A DNA stretch of 53,357 nucleotides, from NCBI GenBank assembly GCA_026416095.1, contig JAOAFV010000032.1, forward strand, positions 1 to 53,357, read 5' to 3'. Below are positions 30,880 to 36,333 of this stretch, one piece after another. The DNA comes from Bacteroidales bacterium (GTDB taxonomy: Bacteria > Bacteroidota > Bacteroidia > Bacteroidales > GWA2-32-17). The notes beneath the pieces were generated by a model. The model ran no database searches. It saw only the letters and a list, made by a program, of their open reading frames with translations, and was not told the DNA's origin. A program made the position numbers and the translations under genes. How positions within the stretch are numbered: position 1 is the first letter of the stretch; each line of letters begins with the position of its first letter.

Positions 30880-32256
30880 TTATTTTTCTTTTTCTCTTAA
30901 AACGTTTATATTTTTAACAATTATTAACAATGAACTTAAATAGAAAGGAATAAATGGTATTTTGTATCTCACTAAAGCACCAAAATTTGCAGTACTCAAA
31001 CCAACAAAAAAAGCAAAGATAACACTAAAGGTAATGCCAAAAATAATGTATGGATCAGAAAATAATACAGAAAGAACATATTTTATTTTATGATAACGTA
31101 AACTGTATAAAAAAGTAAATAATATATAAATGGTAAGTAATAAAAATAATGAATTTTCAAGAGCCGAAATAACAACGATAGGTTTACGCACATCCCATAA
31201 AAATGGGCGGTATAATCCTGTAATTGTTGCGATTGGGAACTTAGAAAGCATTCCTTGAGGCGTTGGTTCAAATTCACCTATATCGAAAGAATTTAGACCA
31301 TAATATTCTTGCTTTAAATCTTGCTGTGTAATTTTAATTTTTTTTGCCATTTTCTCGAACGAAGCAAAATCGCCACCAATTATTTCTCCTAAATAGGCTA
31401 ATATATATGAACCTAAAAAAATAGTGATTAGAAATGAAAAAGGTAATATTACAAGCCTTATAAATTTATTCTTGAAAGCTTTTAGATTGATAAAAATGAA
31501 AAATACAAAAAGAGCAGACACTTCGGCTAAAAGAATATATGGTTTAATCTCAATTAGAATATAACAAGAAAAAATAATAATAAATATATTTATAAAAATT
31601 TTTTTTCTAAGAAAGATCAGCCTATAAAAGCCGTAAAATAATAAACATGCACCCATAAAAGTGTAAGAATCTTTGTATAAACCACTACCCCAAAAAGCAA
31701 CAGAAGGTACAAACAAAAATGAAAAAGCAATGCTTTTAATGTGCTCGGGGAACCTGCTTGCAAGCAGGTTAAACAACTTCCATTGGCCAATAAATGTAAA
31801 CATACTAACTACTATTGTTGATGGTAAGTAATACCCTAATCCGGCAATACAAAAAAACGTTGAGAATCTTATTACCGAAAAAGCTCTGTAATCGTTCCAG
31901 TATAATGGATAACCCGTTTCATTGTTAAAAACCGAAAAATTCTCAGGCGTAAGGTTACCTAATAAAATACTTAAAAATTTTAATATATCTACTTTAATAG
32001 TTTGAAGTAAAACCATAGTGCTTTGAAAATAATTAGTAGTATCGCCTTCGCCATAATAATACACGTAAAATATCGAAAAAATTATCCCCCCTGAAATTTT
32101 GAACAATATACCTGGTAGAAAATATTTTACTGTAAGCGAATTTTCTTTATAATTTTTGAGAAATAACCCATAAAGTATAATAATAATTAAGTAAAATGCA
32201 GTAATTGAATAATCCCAAATTGTAATTAAGTCGGCACCATACTTCCAGATGTACAT
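30880..32256 (-). CDS. Polytopic membrane protein, probable polysaccharide polymerase-like
   Basis: 458 residues with about ten to twelve hydrophobic segments and one large loop (about 290-345, AKKIKITQQDLKQEYYGLNSF and onward). The conserved-looking part VPSVAFWGSGLYKDSYTFMGACLLFYGFYRL resembles a segment seen in membrane proteins of exopolysaccharide clusters. It sits divergently next to a sugar amidotransferase and three glycosyltransferases, so a Wzy-like polymerase or a related lipid-linked glycan enzyme is the best guess. No named family was firmly recognised. Its promoter overlaps that of the divergent gene in a palindrome. Confidence 0.75.
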   Translation of the reverse strand: MYIWKYGADLITIWDYSITAFYLIIIILYGLFLKNYKENSLTVKYFLPGILFKISGGIIFSIFYVYYYGEGDTTNYFQSTMVLLQTIKVDILKFLSILLGNLTPENFSVFNNETGYPLYWNDYRAFSVIRFSTFFCIAGLGYYLPSTIVVSMFTFIGQWKLFNLLASRFPEHIKSIAFSFLFVPSVAFWGSGLYKDSYTFMGACLLFYGFYRLIFLRKKIFINIFIIIFSCYILIEIKPYILLAEVSALFVFFIFINLKAFKNKFIRLVILPFSFLITIFLGSYILAYLGEIIGGDFASFEKMAKKIKITQQDLKQEYYGLNSFDIGEFEPTPQGMLSKFPIATITGLYRPFLWDVRKPIVVISALENSLFLLLTIYILFTFLYSLRYHKIKYVLSVLFSDPYIIFGITFSVIFAFFVGLSTANFGALVRYKIPFIPFYLSSLLIIVKNINVLREKEK

Positions 32257-32265
32257 TTAAATTAT

Positions 32266-32281
32266 TATTTTTGCAAAAATA
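32266..32281. promoter_or_regulatory. Palindromic bidirectional -7 box pair
   Basis: TATTTTTGCAAAAATA is a perfect 16-bp palindrome that reads TATTTTTG (TAnnTTTG) on both strands. The two opposed -7 boxes are adjacent, each ending 17 bases before the start codon of its gene (ATG at 32256 on minus, TTG at 32291 on plus). No good -33 box is seen on either side. Confidence 0.55.
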
Positions 32282-32290
32282 TAATTAAAC

Positions 32291-33424
32291 TTGAATAAAA
32301 AAATAAAAATATGTTCCTATTGCGTTTGCGACACTACTATTTCAGGAATTAAATTTAATATTGAAGGTAGATGCAACTATTGTATTAGTCATGAAAAATT
32401 TTTGAACAAAATATACTATAATCGAGGAAAAACTCATACTTATCTTATAAAGATTCTAAATTTAATAAAAAAAAGGGGAAAAGATAAAAAATATAATTGC
32501 ATAATTGGGGCAAGTGGAGGGGTCGATTCTTCTTATTTGTTATATTTAGCAAAAAAATGGGAGCTTCGTCCTCTTGTGGTTCATATGAATAATGGTTGGA
32601 ATACGGAATTTTCTGTTGCAAACCTTATTAATTTGACTAATATTTTGAAGTTTGATTTTTACGAGTATTACCTTGACTTTGAAGAATTTAAAGATTTGCA
32701 GATTTCTTTTCTTAAAGCATCTGTGTCCGATCTTGAAAACCCAACCGATATGGCAATTTTAGGAGTACTTCATAAAATTGCAAAAAAACATAATGTAAAA
32801 TATATTCTAATGGCTAATAACTTTGTATCAGAAGGTATCTTACCTCAATATTTTCTTTATAATCCAAAAGATAAAAAATACATAAAATCGATTCATAGAA
32901 AATATGGCAATCTAAAAATTAAAAAGTTTCCATGGTTCGGGTTAAAAGAAGAGCTTTATTACAAGTTTATTAAAGGAATAAAAATAATTTATCCTTTGAA
33001 TTATATTAGCTATTCACCTGAAGAAGCTAAAATAGAATTAAAAAAAGTTTTTAATTTTATAGATTATCCTAAAAAGCATACCGAATCAATATATACTAAA
33101 TTTGCTCAATTTTATTACTTATATAAAAAATTTAATATTGACTACCGAAAAGCTACTTTATCGTCTTTAATATGTTCGGGCGAAATTACTCGTTCTGAAG
33201 CATTAAAAATATTAGAAACTCCGCCATTGACTTTAGAAGAAGAAGAATCTTTAATAAATAAAGTTGCTTTTAATTTTGGCATTACCAAAGAATATTTAAA
33301 TGAGCTAATTAATCAAAAGCCAAAATATTTTCACAACTACCCTAATAATGAATTAATTCTTAAAATTATTTATTTTCTTTTCAACAAATTATTAAAAAAA
33401 ATTATTAGCCCTTATTCCTTATGA
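32291..33424 (+). CDS. N-acetyl sugar amidotransferase (WbpG/PseA family)
   Basis: A 377-residue ATP-pyrophosphatase (PP-loop) enzyme of the type that converts an acetamido group of a nucleotide sugar into an acetamidino group for O-antigen or flagellin glycans. Evidence: a Cys cluster at the N-terminus (CSYCVCDTT and CNYC), the PP-loop SGGVDSSYLLYLAKKW (about 77-92) and later GVLHKIAKKHNVKYILMANN. Known WbpG proteins get ammonia from HisH/HisF-type partners; none is adjacent. The start is a TTG: an in-frame stop is three codons upstream, and any later start would lose the Cys cluster. It overlaps the next gene as ATGA. Confidence 0.88.
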   Translation: MNKKIKICSYCVCDTTISGIKFNIEGRCNYCISHEKFLNKIYYNRGKTHTYLIKILNLIKKRGKDKKYNCIIGASGGVDSSYLLYLAKKWELRPLVVHMNNGWNTEFSVANLINLTNILKFDFYEYYLDFEEFKDLQISFLKASVSDLENPTDMAILGVLHKIAKKHNVKYILMANNFVSEGILPQYFLYNPKDKKYIKSIHRKYGNLKIKKFPWFGLKEELYYKFIKGIKIIYPLNYISYSPEEAKIELKKVFNFIDYPKKHTESIYTKFAQFYYLYKKFNIDYRKATLSSLICSGEITRSEALKILETPPLTLEEEESLINKVAFNFGITKEYLNELINQKPKYFHNYPNNELILKIIYFLFNKLLKKIISPYSL

Positions 33425-34362
33425 TTTCTATAATTATTCCTACTTATAATAGGGAAAATATATTGCAACAAACTATTTTAAATTTATATAATTTGTTTTG
33501 CCAATATAGCATAAATTTCGAAGTAATAATAATAAACGATGGCAATGATATAAATGTGTATAATCCGGGGTTTAAAGATTTTAAGTTATACAAAAACAAC
33601 AAAAAAGGTGTTGCTTCGGCACGTAATTTAGGAATTAAAAAAAGCAATTTTGATAACTTGCTCTTCATTGATGATGATATATTGTTGACTCATAATGCAG
33701 TGAAAACAATTATAAATTTCATTGAAGAAAAATTAATCCACTCTTTTTGTCTTAATTTTATATGGGAATATACACCAGAAGTAAAAAAGCTATCTTTAAC
33801 AGATAATTTTATAAGATATTTAATGAAGGTTTATGATAAAAGCATATACAAGGATGCTCATTATATTTTTTTTAAAGATAATCTTTATTTTATTGAAGAT
33901 TTAAGTTCTTGTGCTTTGCTAATTAGTAAAGAAAATATGCTTAAAGTAGGAGGGTATAATGAAAGTTACCCATATAGCGGTTTTGAAGATTACGATTTTT
34001 CGAAAAGAGTCAAAGAATATGGAATAAAAGTTTTGTGTTCAAAAGATATTATTTATCATAACGATATAGATAACATGAGCTTTAAAAGATGGAAAGAAAA
34101 ACGTCAAATAGAAGGATTAACAAGAGCAATGTATGTTAGAATTACAAAGGATAGTTCGTGGGTAATTAAGCACTCTATTGTTAAAAGATTATTATTCGCC
34201 GTTTTTATAAGATTTAACATGTATATTTATGACCTTTGTAAATTACTTAACAACAAAAGATTTGACTTAATTACTTTTAAATTATATAATGTATTAGCAG
34301 GAGCTTTTATATGGAAAGGATACAATGATTGCTTTAAAAATGAACAAAAGAAAAAAAATTAA
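33421..34362 (+). CDS. Family 2 glycosyltransferase
   Basis: 313 residues with a GT-A fold: IIPTYNRENILQQTILNLY at the start, INDG, KGVASARNLGIKK and the metal-binding FIDDDI (about 83-88), then SGFEDYDFSKRVKEYGIKV for the acceptor side. It would transfer a sugar from a nucleotide donor to a growing surface glycan at the cytoplasmic face. The C-terminal part is basic and lacks clear membrane segments. It overlaps the amidotransferase gene by 4 bases and the next glycosyltransferase gene by 38, so these are one operon. Donor and acceptor cannot be told from sequence. Confidence 0.92.
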   Translation: MISIIIPTYNRENILQQTILNLYNLFCQYSINFEVIIINDGNDINVYNPGFKDFKLYKNNKKGVASARNLGIKKSNFDNLLFIDDDILLTHNAVKTIINFIEEKLIHSFCLNFIWEYTPEVKKLSLTDNFIRYLMKVYDKSIYKDAHYIFFKDNLYFIEDLSSCALLISKENMLKVGGYNESYPYSGFEDYDFSKRVKEYGIKVLCSKDIIYHNDIDNMSFKRWKEKRQIEGLTRAMYVRITKDSSWVIKHSIVKRLLFAVFIRFNMYIYDLCKLLNNKRFDLITFKLYNVLAGAFIWKGYNDCFKNEQKKKN

Positions 34363-35473
34363 AGTAGTTGCTGTTTTTTCTAATATTGATTATGCCAAAG
34401 AATTTTATTGGTATGCAAAATTTATAGATAAAAATTTGTTTAATGTTGTGTTTATTTTCATTAATCCTAATAAATTTCCAATAGAAGAACAAATAGAAAG
34501 ATTAGGATATAAAGTAATTCACTATTCTTATAAAAAAAAATTACATTTATTAGTAGTAACAATACGTTTGTTTTTATTTATTTTGAAAACACGTCCGCAT
34601 ATCATACATTCTCAATTATTTGAAGCAACTCTGGTTAGTAGTATAGCAGCATTTTTTGCATTTACAAAAAATAGGATAATAACCAGACATCATTCAGATT
34701 ATCACAAAATTTATTTTCCATCTGCAGTAAAGTACGATAAGCTTATAAATTTATTGTCAAGAAAAATTATTGTACCATCTACGTCGGTTGTAAAACAACT
34801 TATGCTTGAAAATTGTAAAGAAACGAAAATAGAAGTCATATATCATGGTTTCGATTTCGGTGAGTTTAACCGAACACAAGAGCAAATAGAGAGAATAAAA
34901 GAAAAATACAATCTTACATCAAAACCTGTTATTGGAATTATTTCTCGTTTTACTCATTGGAAAGGGTTACAATATTCTATTCCAGCCTTTGAAAAATTGC
35001 TTGATTTTTATCCTCATGCAATACTGGTTCTTGCAAATGCTCATGGAGAATACAAATCTAATATTTTGTCGTTATTGAAAAGTATTCCAGCAAAAAATTA
35101 CAGAGTTATTGAATTTGAAGAAGATAATTACTCTTTATTTAAAACATTCGATGTATTCGTTCATACGCCTATTAGCCCAACTGCCGAAAGCTTTGGACAA
35201 GTATATGTAGAAGCGCTTTATTTACAAGTTCCATCGGTATTTACTCTTTCGGGAATTGCATGCGAATTAGAAATGTTTAAGAAATATTCGATTGTGGTCG
35301 ATTATCAAAACTCAAGTCAGATACTAGAAGCCTTATTAAAAATTCTTACAAATTACGAATTTTATAAAAATCAACTTATAAATGTTAGAAATGAAATAGA
35401 AAATTATTTTAGCTTCAATATAAAAATAAAAAAAATAGAAAATTTATACCTACATCTATGCAAGAAAATTTAG
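34325..35473 (+). CDS. Family 4-type glycosyltransferase
   Basis: 382 residues of GT-B fold. The N-terminal domain has KVVAVFSNIDYAKEFYWYAKFID and RPHIIHSQLFEATLVSSIAA; the C-terminal domain has VIGIISRFTHWKGLQYSIPAFEKLL and the donor-site region FVHTPISPTAESFGQVYVEALYLQVPSVFT with the acidic residues of the E-x7-E motif. It is the only GT-B enzyme in the cluster. A second ATG at 34340 (MNKRKKIKVV) is an equally good start and shortens the overlap with the upstream gene. The last 16 bases overlap the next gene. Confidence 0.92.
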   Translation: MIALKMNKRKKIKVVAVFSNIDYAKEFYWYAKFIDKNLFNVVFIFINPNKFPIEEQIERLGYKVIHYSYKKKLHLLVVTIRLFLFILKTRPHIIHSQLFEATLVSSIAAFFAFTKNRIITRHHSDYHKIYFPSAVKYDKLINLLSRKIIVPSTSVVKQLMLENCKETKIEVIYHGFDFGEFNRTQEQIERIKEKYNLTSKPVIGIISRFTHWKGLQYSIPAFEKLLDFYPHAILVLANAHGEYKSNILSLLKSIPAKNYRVIEFEEDNYSLFKTFDVFVHTPISPTAESFGQVYVEALYLQVPSVFTLSGIACELEMFKKYSIVVDYQNSSQILEALLKILTNYEFYKNQLINVRNEIENYFSFNIKIKKIENLYLHLCKKI

Positions 35474-36333
35474 TATCGGTTGTTATACCTGCATATAACG
35501 CTAGTATGTATATAGTCGACACATTAAATTCAGTAATACATCAGTCGTATAAAAACATAGAAATTATTGTAGTGAATGATGGTTCTTTTGACGACACTCT
35601 AGAAAAGGTTCTTTCGTTTAGCGATGAAAGAATTATTGTAATAAATCAAGAAAATAGGGGTGTTTCGGTAGCAAGAAATAAAGGGCTAGAAATTAGTAAA
35701 GGAGAGTTTATAGTTTTTTTCGATGCCGACGACATAATGGATAAGTATTATCTCGAAAACCTTGTTAAAAAGTTAAAATTGCATCCAGATGCTAATTTTT
35801 GTTCATCTCTAGTTTTCAAAATACATATTGATGTTTCTAATGTTGTGGAAATTAAAGACAGCATCTATAATAATATTGCCGAAAATGTTTTGTTATATTT
35901 ACCTAAAAGCACAGTACCATCGGCCTTTATGTTTAGAAAAGATTTTTTAATAAAGAACAAAATATTATTTAATCCAGAGTTGTCGAGCACTGCCGATAGA
36001 GAATTTTTATTAAAAGTTCATTCTTGTAATGGCAATGGTGTTATTTGTAGAAGTGCACGATTATATTACAGAATGCACGAAAACAGCATGTCGTATAAAT
36101 TAACACCTCAATTAATTAACGATAATGTAAAATTTTACGATATCATAAATATTAAGGATTATTTTAAAGAAAAAAGTAAAATAGAATATGCAGAATTTAT
36201 TAAGTTTTATATCATTTCTGTTTCGTATTTAAAAATAAAATCCTTAAAGTTTATTAAATATGCTTTAGAACTAATAAAAAGGTTTCATTTAAAAAGTCTT
36301 TATTATTTTGTTAAATGGAAAACATCAGGTTAA
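35458..36333 (+). CDS. Family 2 glycosyltransferase
   Basis: 291 residues; the classic GT2 N-terminus VVIPAYNASMYIVDTLNSVI with HQSYKNIEIIVVNDGS, then NRGVSVARNKGLEISKGEFIVFFDADDIMD with the DxD-type motif (about 88-92). The central STADREFLLKVHSCNG region fits the acceptor/catalytic base area (usually ED or D-RE). It is the last gene of the glycan operon, overlapping the previous gene by 16 bases, and is followed by a 62-base gap before panC. Specific sugar unknown. Confidence 0.93.
   Translation: MQENLVSVVIPAYNASMYIVDTLNSVIHQSYKNIEIIVVNDGSFDDTLEKVLSFSDERIIVINQENRGVSVARNKGLEISKGEFIVFFDADDIMDKYYLENLVKKLKLHPDANFCSSLVFKIHIDVSNVVEIKDSIYNNIAENVLLYLPKSTVPSAFMFRKDFLIKNKILFNPELSSTADREFLLKVHSCNGNGVICRSARLYYRMHENSMSYKLTPQLINDNVKFYDIINIKDYFKEKSKIEYAEFIKFYIISVSYLKIKSLKFIKYALELIKRFHLKSLYYFVKWKTSG

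Follow-up and report, generated by a model that had tools for sequence, protein, structure and literature searches.

Introduction

In Bacteroides fragilis, invertible capsule promoters lie ahead of surface-glycan genes. Warman, Grainger and colleagues have described, for Escherichia coli and Salmonella, bidirectional promoters whose divergent transcription starts lie 7-25 bp apart, 18 bp being the commonest distance (PMC12825309, PMC10268837). Basal transcription from five bidirectional promoters tested in E. coli was too low for competition, and a strongly activated direction was able to repress its counterpart, the interference lowering cell-to-cell variation (PMC12825309). In Flavobacterium psychrophilum, the -7 box of the promoter occupies positions -12 to -5 (PMC9723704). 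The present analysis concerns a 16-bp palindrome, TATTTTTGCAAAAATA, in which two such boxes, each of the form TAnnTTTG, abut on opposite strands between two divergent genes of a Bacteroidales bacterium (assembly GCA_026416095.1, contig JAOAFV010000032.1). The window, meaning the whole stretch of DNA analysed, is one entire contig of 53,357 nt from an AT-rich genome of 2.46 Mb in 62 contigs (referred to as G000). The minus-strand gene encodes a GT-C-like membrane protein, and the plus-strand gene, an N-acetyl sugar amidotransferase, heads an operon of glycosyltransferases.

The site is read here, with a probability of about 0.78, as a compact bidirectional promoter composed of two ordinary sigma-A promoters, with their -7 boxes meeting tail to tail, an arrangement probably formed by chance.

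Geometry of the palindromic site

Direct reading of the sequence gave TATTTTTGCAAAAATA as a perfect palindrome of 16 bp, beyond which the next outward pairs mismatch (32265/32282 and 32264/32283). It is flanked by 9 bp on each side within an intergenic gap of 34 bp (32257-32290). The features of the gap are as follows.

32266..32281, no strand: palindrome TATTTTTGCAAAAATA, two abutting, opposed putative -7 boxes (direct reading, palindrome count)
32266..32273, plus strand: putative -7 box TATTTTTG toward the amidotransferase operon, 17 nt before the TTG at 32291; predicted +1 at 32278
32274..32281, minus strand: putative -7 box TATTTTTG toward the GT-C-like gene, 17 nt before the ATG at 32256; predicted +1 at 32269

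A preliminary description of this DNA had pointed to a perfect palindrome with opposed TAnnTTTG boxes, each 17 nt from a start codon, and this geometry was confirmed. The boxes span 32266-32273 on the plus strand and 32281-32274 on the minus strand, and 17 nt separate the end of each from its start codon, a TTG at 32291-32293 on the plus strand and an ATG at 32256 on the minus strand (CAT at 32254-32256). The plus-strand start is supported by an in-frame stop just upstream (32282-32284) and by a match to the NCBIfam family TIGR03573 from residue 6, and the minus-strand start by a protein that can be aligned from residue 1 to its homologues in two genomes of the same genus (G001 and G003). With each box placed at -12 to -5 as in F. 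psychrophilum (PMC9723704), the predicted starts, 32278 (+) and 32269 (-), would lie 9 bp apart, with leaders of 13 nt each by simple arithmetic from the box geometry.

As the gap measures 34 bp and the spacing is 17 nt, a peak value, on both sides, the boxes abut; and as two opposed TAnnTTTG boxes abut, the pattern TAnnTTTGCAAAnnTA results, beyond which the perfect 16-mer needs only two base pairs (TT against AA). The symmetry results incidentally from the spacing and the consensus, and no special cause for it is needed.

Promoter signals on both strands

A first promoter sample comprised 426 kb of this genome (the window and 20 stretches), with 296 genes called and 149 of them classed as leading by a simple rule; 16 of the 20 stretches had been picked around palindrome-like sites, and palindromic boxes were counted in. 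TAnnTTTG was found to end 10-29 nt before the starts of the 149 leading genes in 52 cases, compared with 12 for the reverse orientation, and the mode of the distances, palindromic boxes included, was 17 nt. In a recount using stretches of four genomes not picked for palindromes, from which palindromic boxes were removed, the peak was shared by 17 and 18 nt, with 15 boxes each (468 leading genes). TAnnTTTG accumulates at such a distance from starts, and as a pair of promoter boxes the window site does exceed chance.

The surroundings of each box were scored with a promoter profile covering the 28 bases that precede a box and the 18 that follow it, built from 84 non-palindromic boxes of this genome and controlled with 887 boxes in coding sequence (medians of 5.3 for true promoters and -6.9 for coding boxes). 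The plus-strand box scored 5.2, above 44% of true promoters and a value reached by 0.8% of the 887 coding boxes, and the minus-strand box scored 9.6, above 86% of true promoters and reached by 0.1% of coding boxes. Given the distance peak and these scores, both boxes are probably working sigma-A -7 elements, as far as sequence can indicate.

Under this reading, the operon of amidotransferase and glycosyltransferase genes would be transcribed from near 32278 by polymerase bound in one orientation, and the GT-C-like gene from near 32269 by polymerase bound the other way round. Both transcripts would carry a leader of about 13 nt, and the upstream half of each promoter would fall within the opening codons of the gene on the opposite side. 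The proposal that only one polymerase can occupy the site at a time is indirectly supported, since both boxes probably work, polymerases bound to them would overlap and a single region would serve the two genes. The palindrome itself would be a consequence of the geometry and of chance origin, perhaps dating from the arrival of the amidotransferase gene at the front of an older divergent locus. Joint regulation of the two genes is not needed.

Palindromic sites and the genes they serve

Palindromic sites were found in 87 of 99 genomes surveyed. Sixty such sites were inspected, comprising 12/12 of G000, 8/8 of G002 and a further 40 among those listed for six genomes, each from a different additional family: every listed site of G081 (3), G085 (8), G059 (6) and G012 (9), with 5/8 of G097 and 9/13 of G056. 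Thirty lay 8-45 nt before a called start, 20 were farther off or had no called start, and 10 were inside called genes. The answer to whether the palindrome is common away from promoters, an outcome that the preliminary description had set against its own proposal, is therefore mixed, half of the sites standing close to a start and half elsewhere.

Starts on both sides were present at 3 of the 30 sites near a start, compared with 25 of 307 ordinary boxes with an opposed start (10% versus 8%). The automatic caller gave two of the 30 (L211 and L213; 7%), the third being the window site, whose TTG start was missed by the caller and added by hand; the count would rise to four if the 65-aa frame at L010 is real. 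The 307 control boxes came from G000-G003 only and received no hand correction, an opposed start being counted where an abutting box would serve it. Palindromic promoter boxes in the control sample had an opposed start in 0 of 7 cases. A single start was served by 28 of the 30 palindromic sites according to the caller and by 27 after the TTG correction. At 10% versus 8%, the palindromes show no preference for divergent genes. The genome's second perfect copy (L001) has starts at 17 nt and 58 nt, the latter distance falling to 37 nt if a TTG is used. A further symmetric case in the order was seen at positions 1501-1516 of L213, where TAAGTTTGCAAAATTA has starts 23 nt from each box end.

Conservation in related genomes

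The short gaps of four genus members were read by eye; automatic DNA alignment misregistered them. In G003, three genes of types GT2, GT4 and GT2 lie divergent from the GT-C-like gene and match operon genes 2-4 of the window at 39%, 47% and 44% identity. The start of the same locus is present near a contig end in G001, where the start of the divergent glycosyltransferase was read directly from the sequence. No match to the amidotransferase was found in either of these genomes (assemblies 97% and 94% complete), and in G002 the GT-C-like gene is present in a different setting. The operon-facing box TATTTTTG was kept in both comparable relatives (G001 and G003) and the palindrome in neither, as the other half carries no TAnnTTTG, reading AAATGCAAAAATA in G003 and ATATTTTGCAAAAATA, symmetric over its ten central bases, in G001. 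The abutting-box palindrome was also absent from 60 fetched homologue loci of the GT-C-like gene (30 + 30, with 28 + 28 having a called gene).

Retention of the operon-facing half alone is consistent with the possibility that only this box works, the GT-C-facing box being a chance echo and the GT-C-like gene being expressed from another start; service of a single start by most palindromic sites near a start points the same way. However, the GT-C-facing box stands at the peak distance and scores higher than its partner (9.6 versus 5.2), and the GT-C-like gene, being divergent, has no upstream gene for read-through and no further TAnnTTTG within the 150 bases upstream. Activity of the operon-facing box alone is consequently considered unlikely.

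Among distant relatives, GT-C-like homologues divergent from a GT4-type gene (TLYITFDGLSDPLGQ and variants; type by our own reading) were seen at L183, L189, L191, L196, L200, L201, L245 and L247. The gap hardly varies among them, at 31-32 bp, and the GT4-type gene has a TTG start in six of these eight according to the caller.

Expected frequency of abutting boxes

Across the 2.46-Mb genome, the perfect 16-mer occurs at 2 sites and forms with at most one mismatch at 15; the looser pattern TAnnTTTGCAAAnnTA occurs at 12 sites, and at 8 in G002. Promoter boxes in stretches of four genomes not picked for palindromes were followed by C in 81 of 187 cases and by CAAA in 21 of 187. A search for TAnnTTTGCAAA followed by three bases and A/T gave 135 strand-counts in this genome, 24 of which represent the 12 palindromic sites, so that the TA completing the palindrome is present at 12 of 123 TAnnTTTGCAAA sites; the corresponding figure for G002 is 8 of 85. 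The expected value is 8.9% (25/73 x 19/73, the single-base frequencies after TAnnTTTGCAAA in the four-genome sample multiplied), and the completing TA occurs at about this rate. Near gene starts, an estimate from joint frequencies predicts about 5 palindromic sites, compared with 8 found 8-45 nt from a start; it multiplies the share of boxes followed by CAAA (8/46, G000 stretches not picked for palindromes) by 8.9% and by roughly 330 promoter boxes per genome, scaled up from 93 in 696 kb.

The spacing of opposed boxes was also scanned over 1.34 Mb drawn from four genomes. Contigs known to carry the palindrome were left out of the G000 share, biasing offset 8, that of abutting pairs, to a low value: 2 were found compared with 1.07 expected by independence. 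In G000 stretches picked for carrying such sites, the count at offset 8 was 11. Offsets 8-13 combined gave 11 pairs (6.4 expected), and offsets -14 to -4 combined gave 26 (11.8 expected), of which 10 fell at offset -6, where the boxes have a common TA; by our own arithmetic, a count of 10 is about what such sharing predicts.

Evidence weighing against a chance-formed bidirectional promoter

Several observations count against the proposed reading. The window contains 8 perfect palindromes of at least 16 bp, compared with a mean of 3.0 and a range of 0-8 in 60 first-order Markov simulations; taken simply as a palindrome, the site exceeds chance weakly. Genome-wide, 12 abutting pairs were found, whereas about 2.2 would be expected if boxes were independent (from the box density of the first sample), and the single-base product after non-palindromic promoter boxes, 0.0082, predicts only 2 to 3. 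Palindromic promoter boxes in the unpicked stretches of four genomes numbered 0 of 187, with about 2 expected. No recognisable -33 element (TTTG) was found, and the aligned boxes of this genome have no conserved G there, a T-rich stretch some 14-24 bases upstream of the box being the sole signal where that element is expected; it was likewise not found in a Flavobacterium study, as recounted in PMC7366714. In G001 and G003 (L087 and L086), TATTTTTG ends only 6 nt before the divergent GT2 start, an unusual spacing, and the operon promoter there could lie elsewhere. Finally, bidirectional activity, the positions of the starts and the origin of the locus are all deduced from sequence, which for activity counts against the reading.

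As a separate observation, the box-to-start distance of 6 nt in G001 and G003 suggests a nearly leaderless mRNA.

With regard to the frequencies, we think that joint frequencies are a fairer yardstick than either independence or the single-base product. No clear excess of abutting boxes was found, and there may be a modest excess in this genome.

Operator, inversion and switch models

The preliminary description had also allowed for binding of a symmetric protein to the palindrome. An operator for a dimeric regulator controlling both genes was considered accordingly, and the perfect symmetry would suit it. The second perfect copy in the genome likewise precedes a gene (L001), and near matches to TAYTTTTGCAAAARTA (at most 2 mismatches) number 5 in the window compared with 1.1 expected, a count reached by 0 of 100 shuffles. 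However, the octamer TTTGCAAA has 191 copies in the 1.34 Mb sampled from four genomes, compared with 186.5 expected from its overlapping parts, and as it was not over-represented the operator was rejected. Of its 76 intergenic copies, 52 carried TAnn on one side, 2 on both sides and 22 on neither, so that 54 resemble -7 boxes, and doubly flanked copies were 2 of 54, compared with about 10% expected for TA by composition (G000 contigs known for such sites being left out). Most intergenic copies of TTTGCAAA are therefore -7 boxes and symmetric copies are not favoured, making control by a dimeric regulator highly improbable.

Between 32100 and 32450, no flanking inverted repeats suitable for inversion were found; the longest fully complementary pair measured 10 nt (I9), and longer pairs were 70-92% complementary. 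An invertible element was rejected on the basis of this search.

The preliminary description had further proposed a dedicated switch, in which polymerase picks one direction and the genes alternate or keep a fixed ratio, an arrangement that could serve to vary surface glycans. Simultaneous occupancy of two abutting boxes is impossible, and the exact 17/17 symmetry occurs at a glycan locus, both of which would suit such a device. Against this, the palindrome was conserved in 0 of 2 comparable relatives, and such sites show no preference for divergent starts (3/30 versus 25/307), giving no support to a special bidirectional class. Alternation or a fixed ratio gains no support from the E. coli precedent either, in which competition arose when one direction was strongly activated and cell-to-cell variation was lowered (PMC12825309). 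Since basal activity in E. coli did not suffice for competition, an unregulated pair is unlikely to act as a switch, and on these grounds of non-conservation, absence of a divergent-pair preference and precedent the model was rejected as having very little chance of being correct. By analogy, strong activation of one side could nevertheless couple the two directions.

A broader proposal is that TAnnTTTG abutting CAAAnnTA constitutes a bidirectional promoter type of its own within Bacteroidota, made of two adjacent asymmetric -7 boxes in place of a single symmetric element common to both directions, with polymerase competition coupling the two directions at compact divergent glycan loci. The loci meant include GT-C/glycosyltransferase pairs like the present one, whose genes stand 34 bp apart here and 31-32 bp apart in several distant relatives that have different promoter sequences. 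This proposal is regarded as doubtful.

Flanking genes

The genes on either side of the palindrome are as follows.

30880..32256, minus strand: 458-aa membrane protein, GT-C-fold glycosyltransferase-like (open reading frame, structural model)
32291..33424, plus strand: N-acetyl sugar amidotransferase (TIGR03573, WbuX) with a TTG start (218.6 bits, cut-off 203.2)
33421..34362, plus strand: GT2 glycosyltransferase, operon gene 2 (open reading frame and family search)
34325..35473, plus strand: GT4-type glycosyltransferase, operon gene 3 (open reading frame and family search)
35458..36333, plus strand: GT2 glycosyltransferase, operon gene 4 (open reading frame and family search)

At the cut-offs applied, the minus-strand gene matched nothing in Pfam, NCBIfam or PHROGs, a Wzy-type O-antigen polymerase family included, and none of the 16 members of its family matched Pfam at E 0.01. 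A structural model built from 16 homologues had a mean predicted local distance difference test score (pLDDT) of 83.6. Its best structural match was ArnT (5f15; Z 16.7, root-mean-square deviation 4.2, 287 aligned), followed by ALG12 (Z 16.6) and by further ArnT and oligosaccharyltransferase chains, to a total of 25 rows with Z of 8 or more, although helical models may score high through a common arrangement. All 25 are taken by us to be GT-C enzymes or their relatives. Foldseek alone gave no match at E of 0.001 or below. In GT-C enzymes, the catalytic Asp lies in the first outer loop. Residues D72 and T73 are invariant in the 16 homologues and are placed at the turn between model helices 41-68 and 72-88. 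On the strength of the structural matches and of these invariant residues at a helix turn, the modelled protein is better read as GT-C-like than as polymerase-like, the label used for it previously, which is now doubtful. Homologues are common in the class, being present in 106 of 149 genomes (with a distant member as the query).

Two further observations were made on these genes. A perfect 20-bp palindrome, AACCTGCTTGCAAGCAGGTT, lies inside the GT-C-like gene at 31751-31770, and its 16-bp core is unique in the genome when no mismatch is allowed. At L044 (G056) and at L045/L089 (G002), a single frame of about 830 aa has the amidotransferase domain behind a glycosyltransferase-like stretch and resembles a fusion protein.

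Comparison with known systems

The window site is a real and compact arrangement of two standard boxes that, judged from its sequence, is probably an active bidirectional promoter. It illustrates that a striking symmetric promoter can arise from a normal -7 consensus and a short gap, and it provides base rates that can be used for AT-rich Bacteroidota genomes before palindromes are called switches. If both directions are active, it would also neatly exemplify a bidirectional promoter whose -7 element is asymmetric, for which no report from Bacteroidota was found in the portions of the literature searched.

The B. fragilis invertible capsule promoters resemble the locus in phylum and in the presence of glycan genes, and differ from it in that suitable flanking inverted repeats are lacking here between 32100 and 32450. 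The Bacteroidota primary-sigma promoter, as known from B. fragilis and Flavobacterium, is matched by the TAnnTTTG octamer, present on both strands, and by the short predicted leaders. Unlike that promoter, the present site has two copies abutting on opposite strands, its starts are predicted and it has no clear -33 element.

With the bidirectional promoters of E. coli and Salmonella, the site would share the use of one short region for divergent RNAs and the mutually exclusive binding of polymerase (PMC12825309, PMC10268837), and the predicted start distance of 9 bp falls within the 7-25 bp by which such promoters are defined (PMC10268837). In the enterobacterial promoters, however, a near-symmetric -10 element is shared by both directions, whereas here two asymmetric boxes with predicted starts 9 bp apart stand side by side, abutting without common bases; each would cover the early transcribed region of the other.

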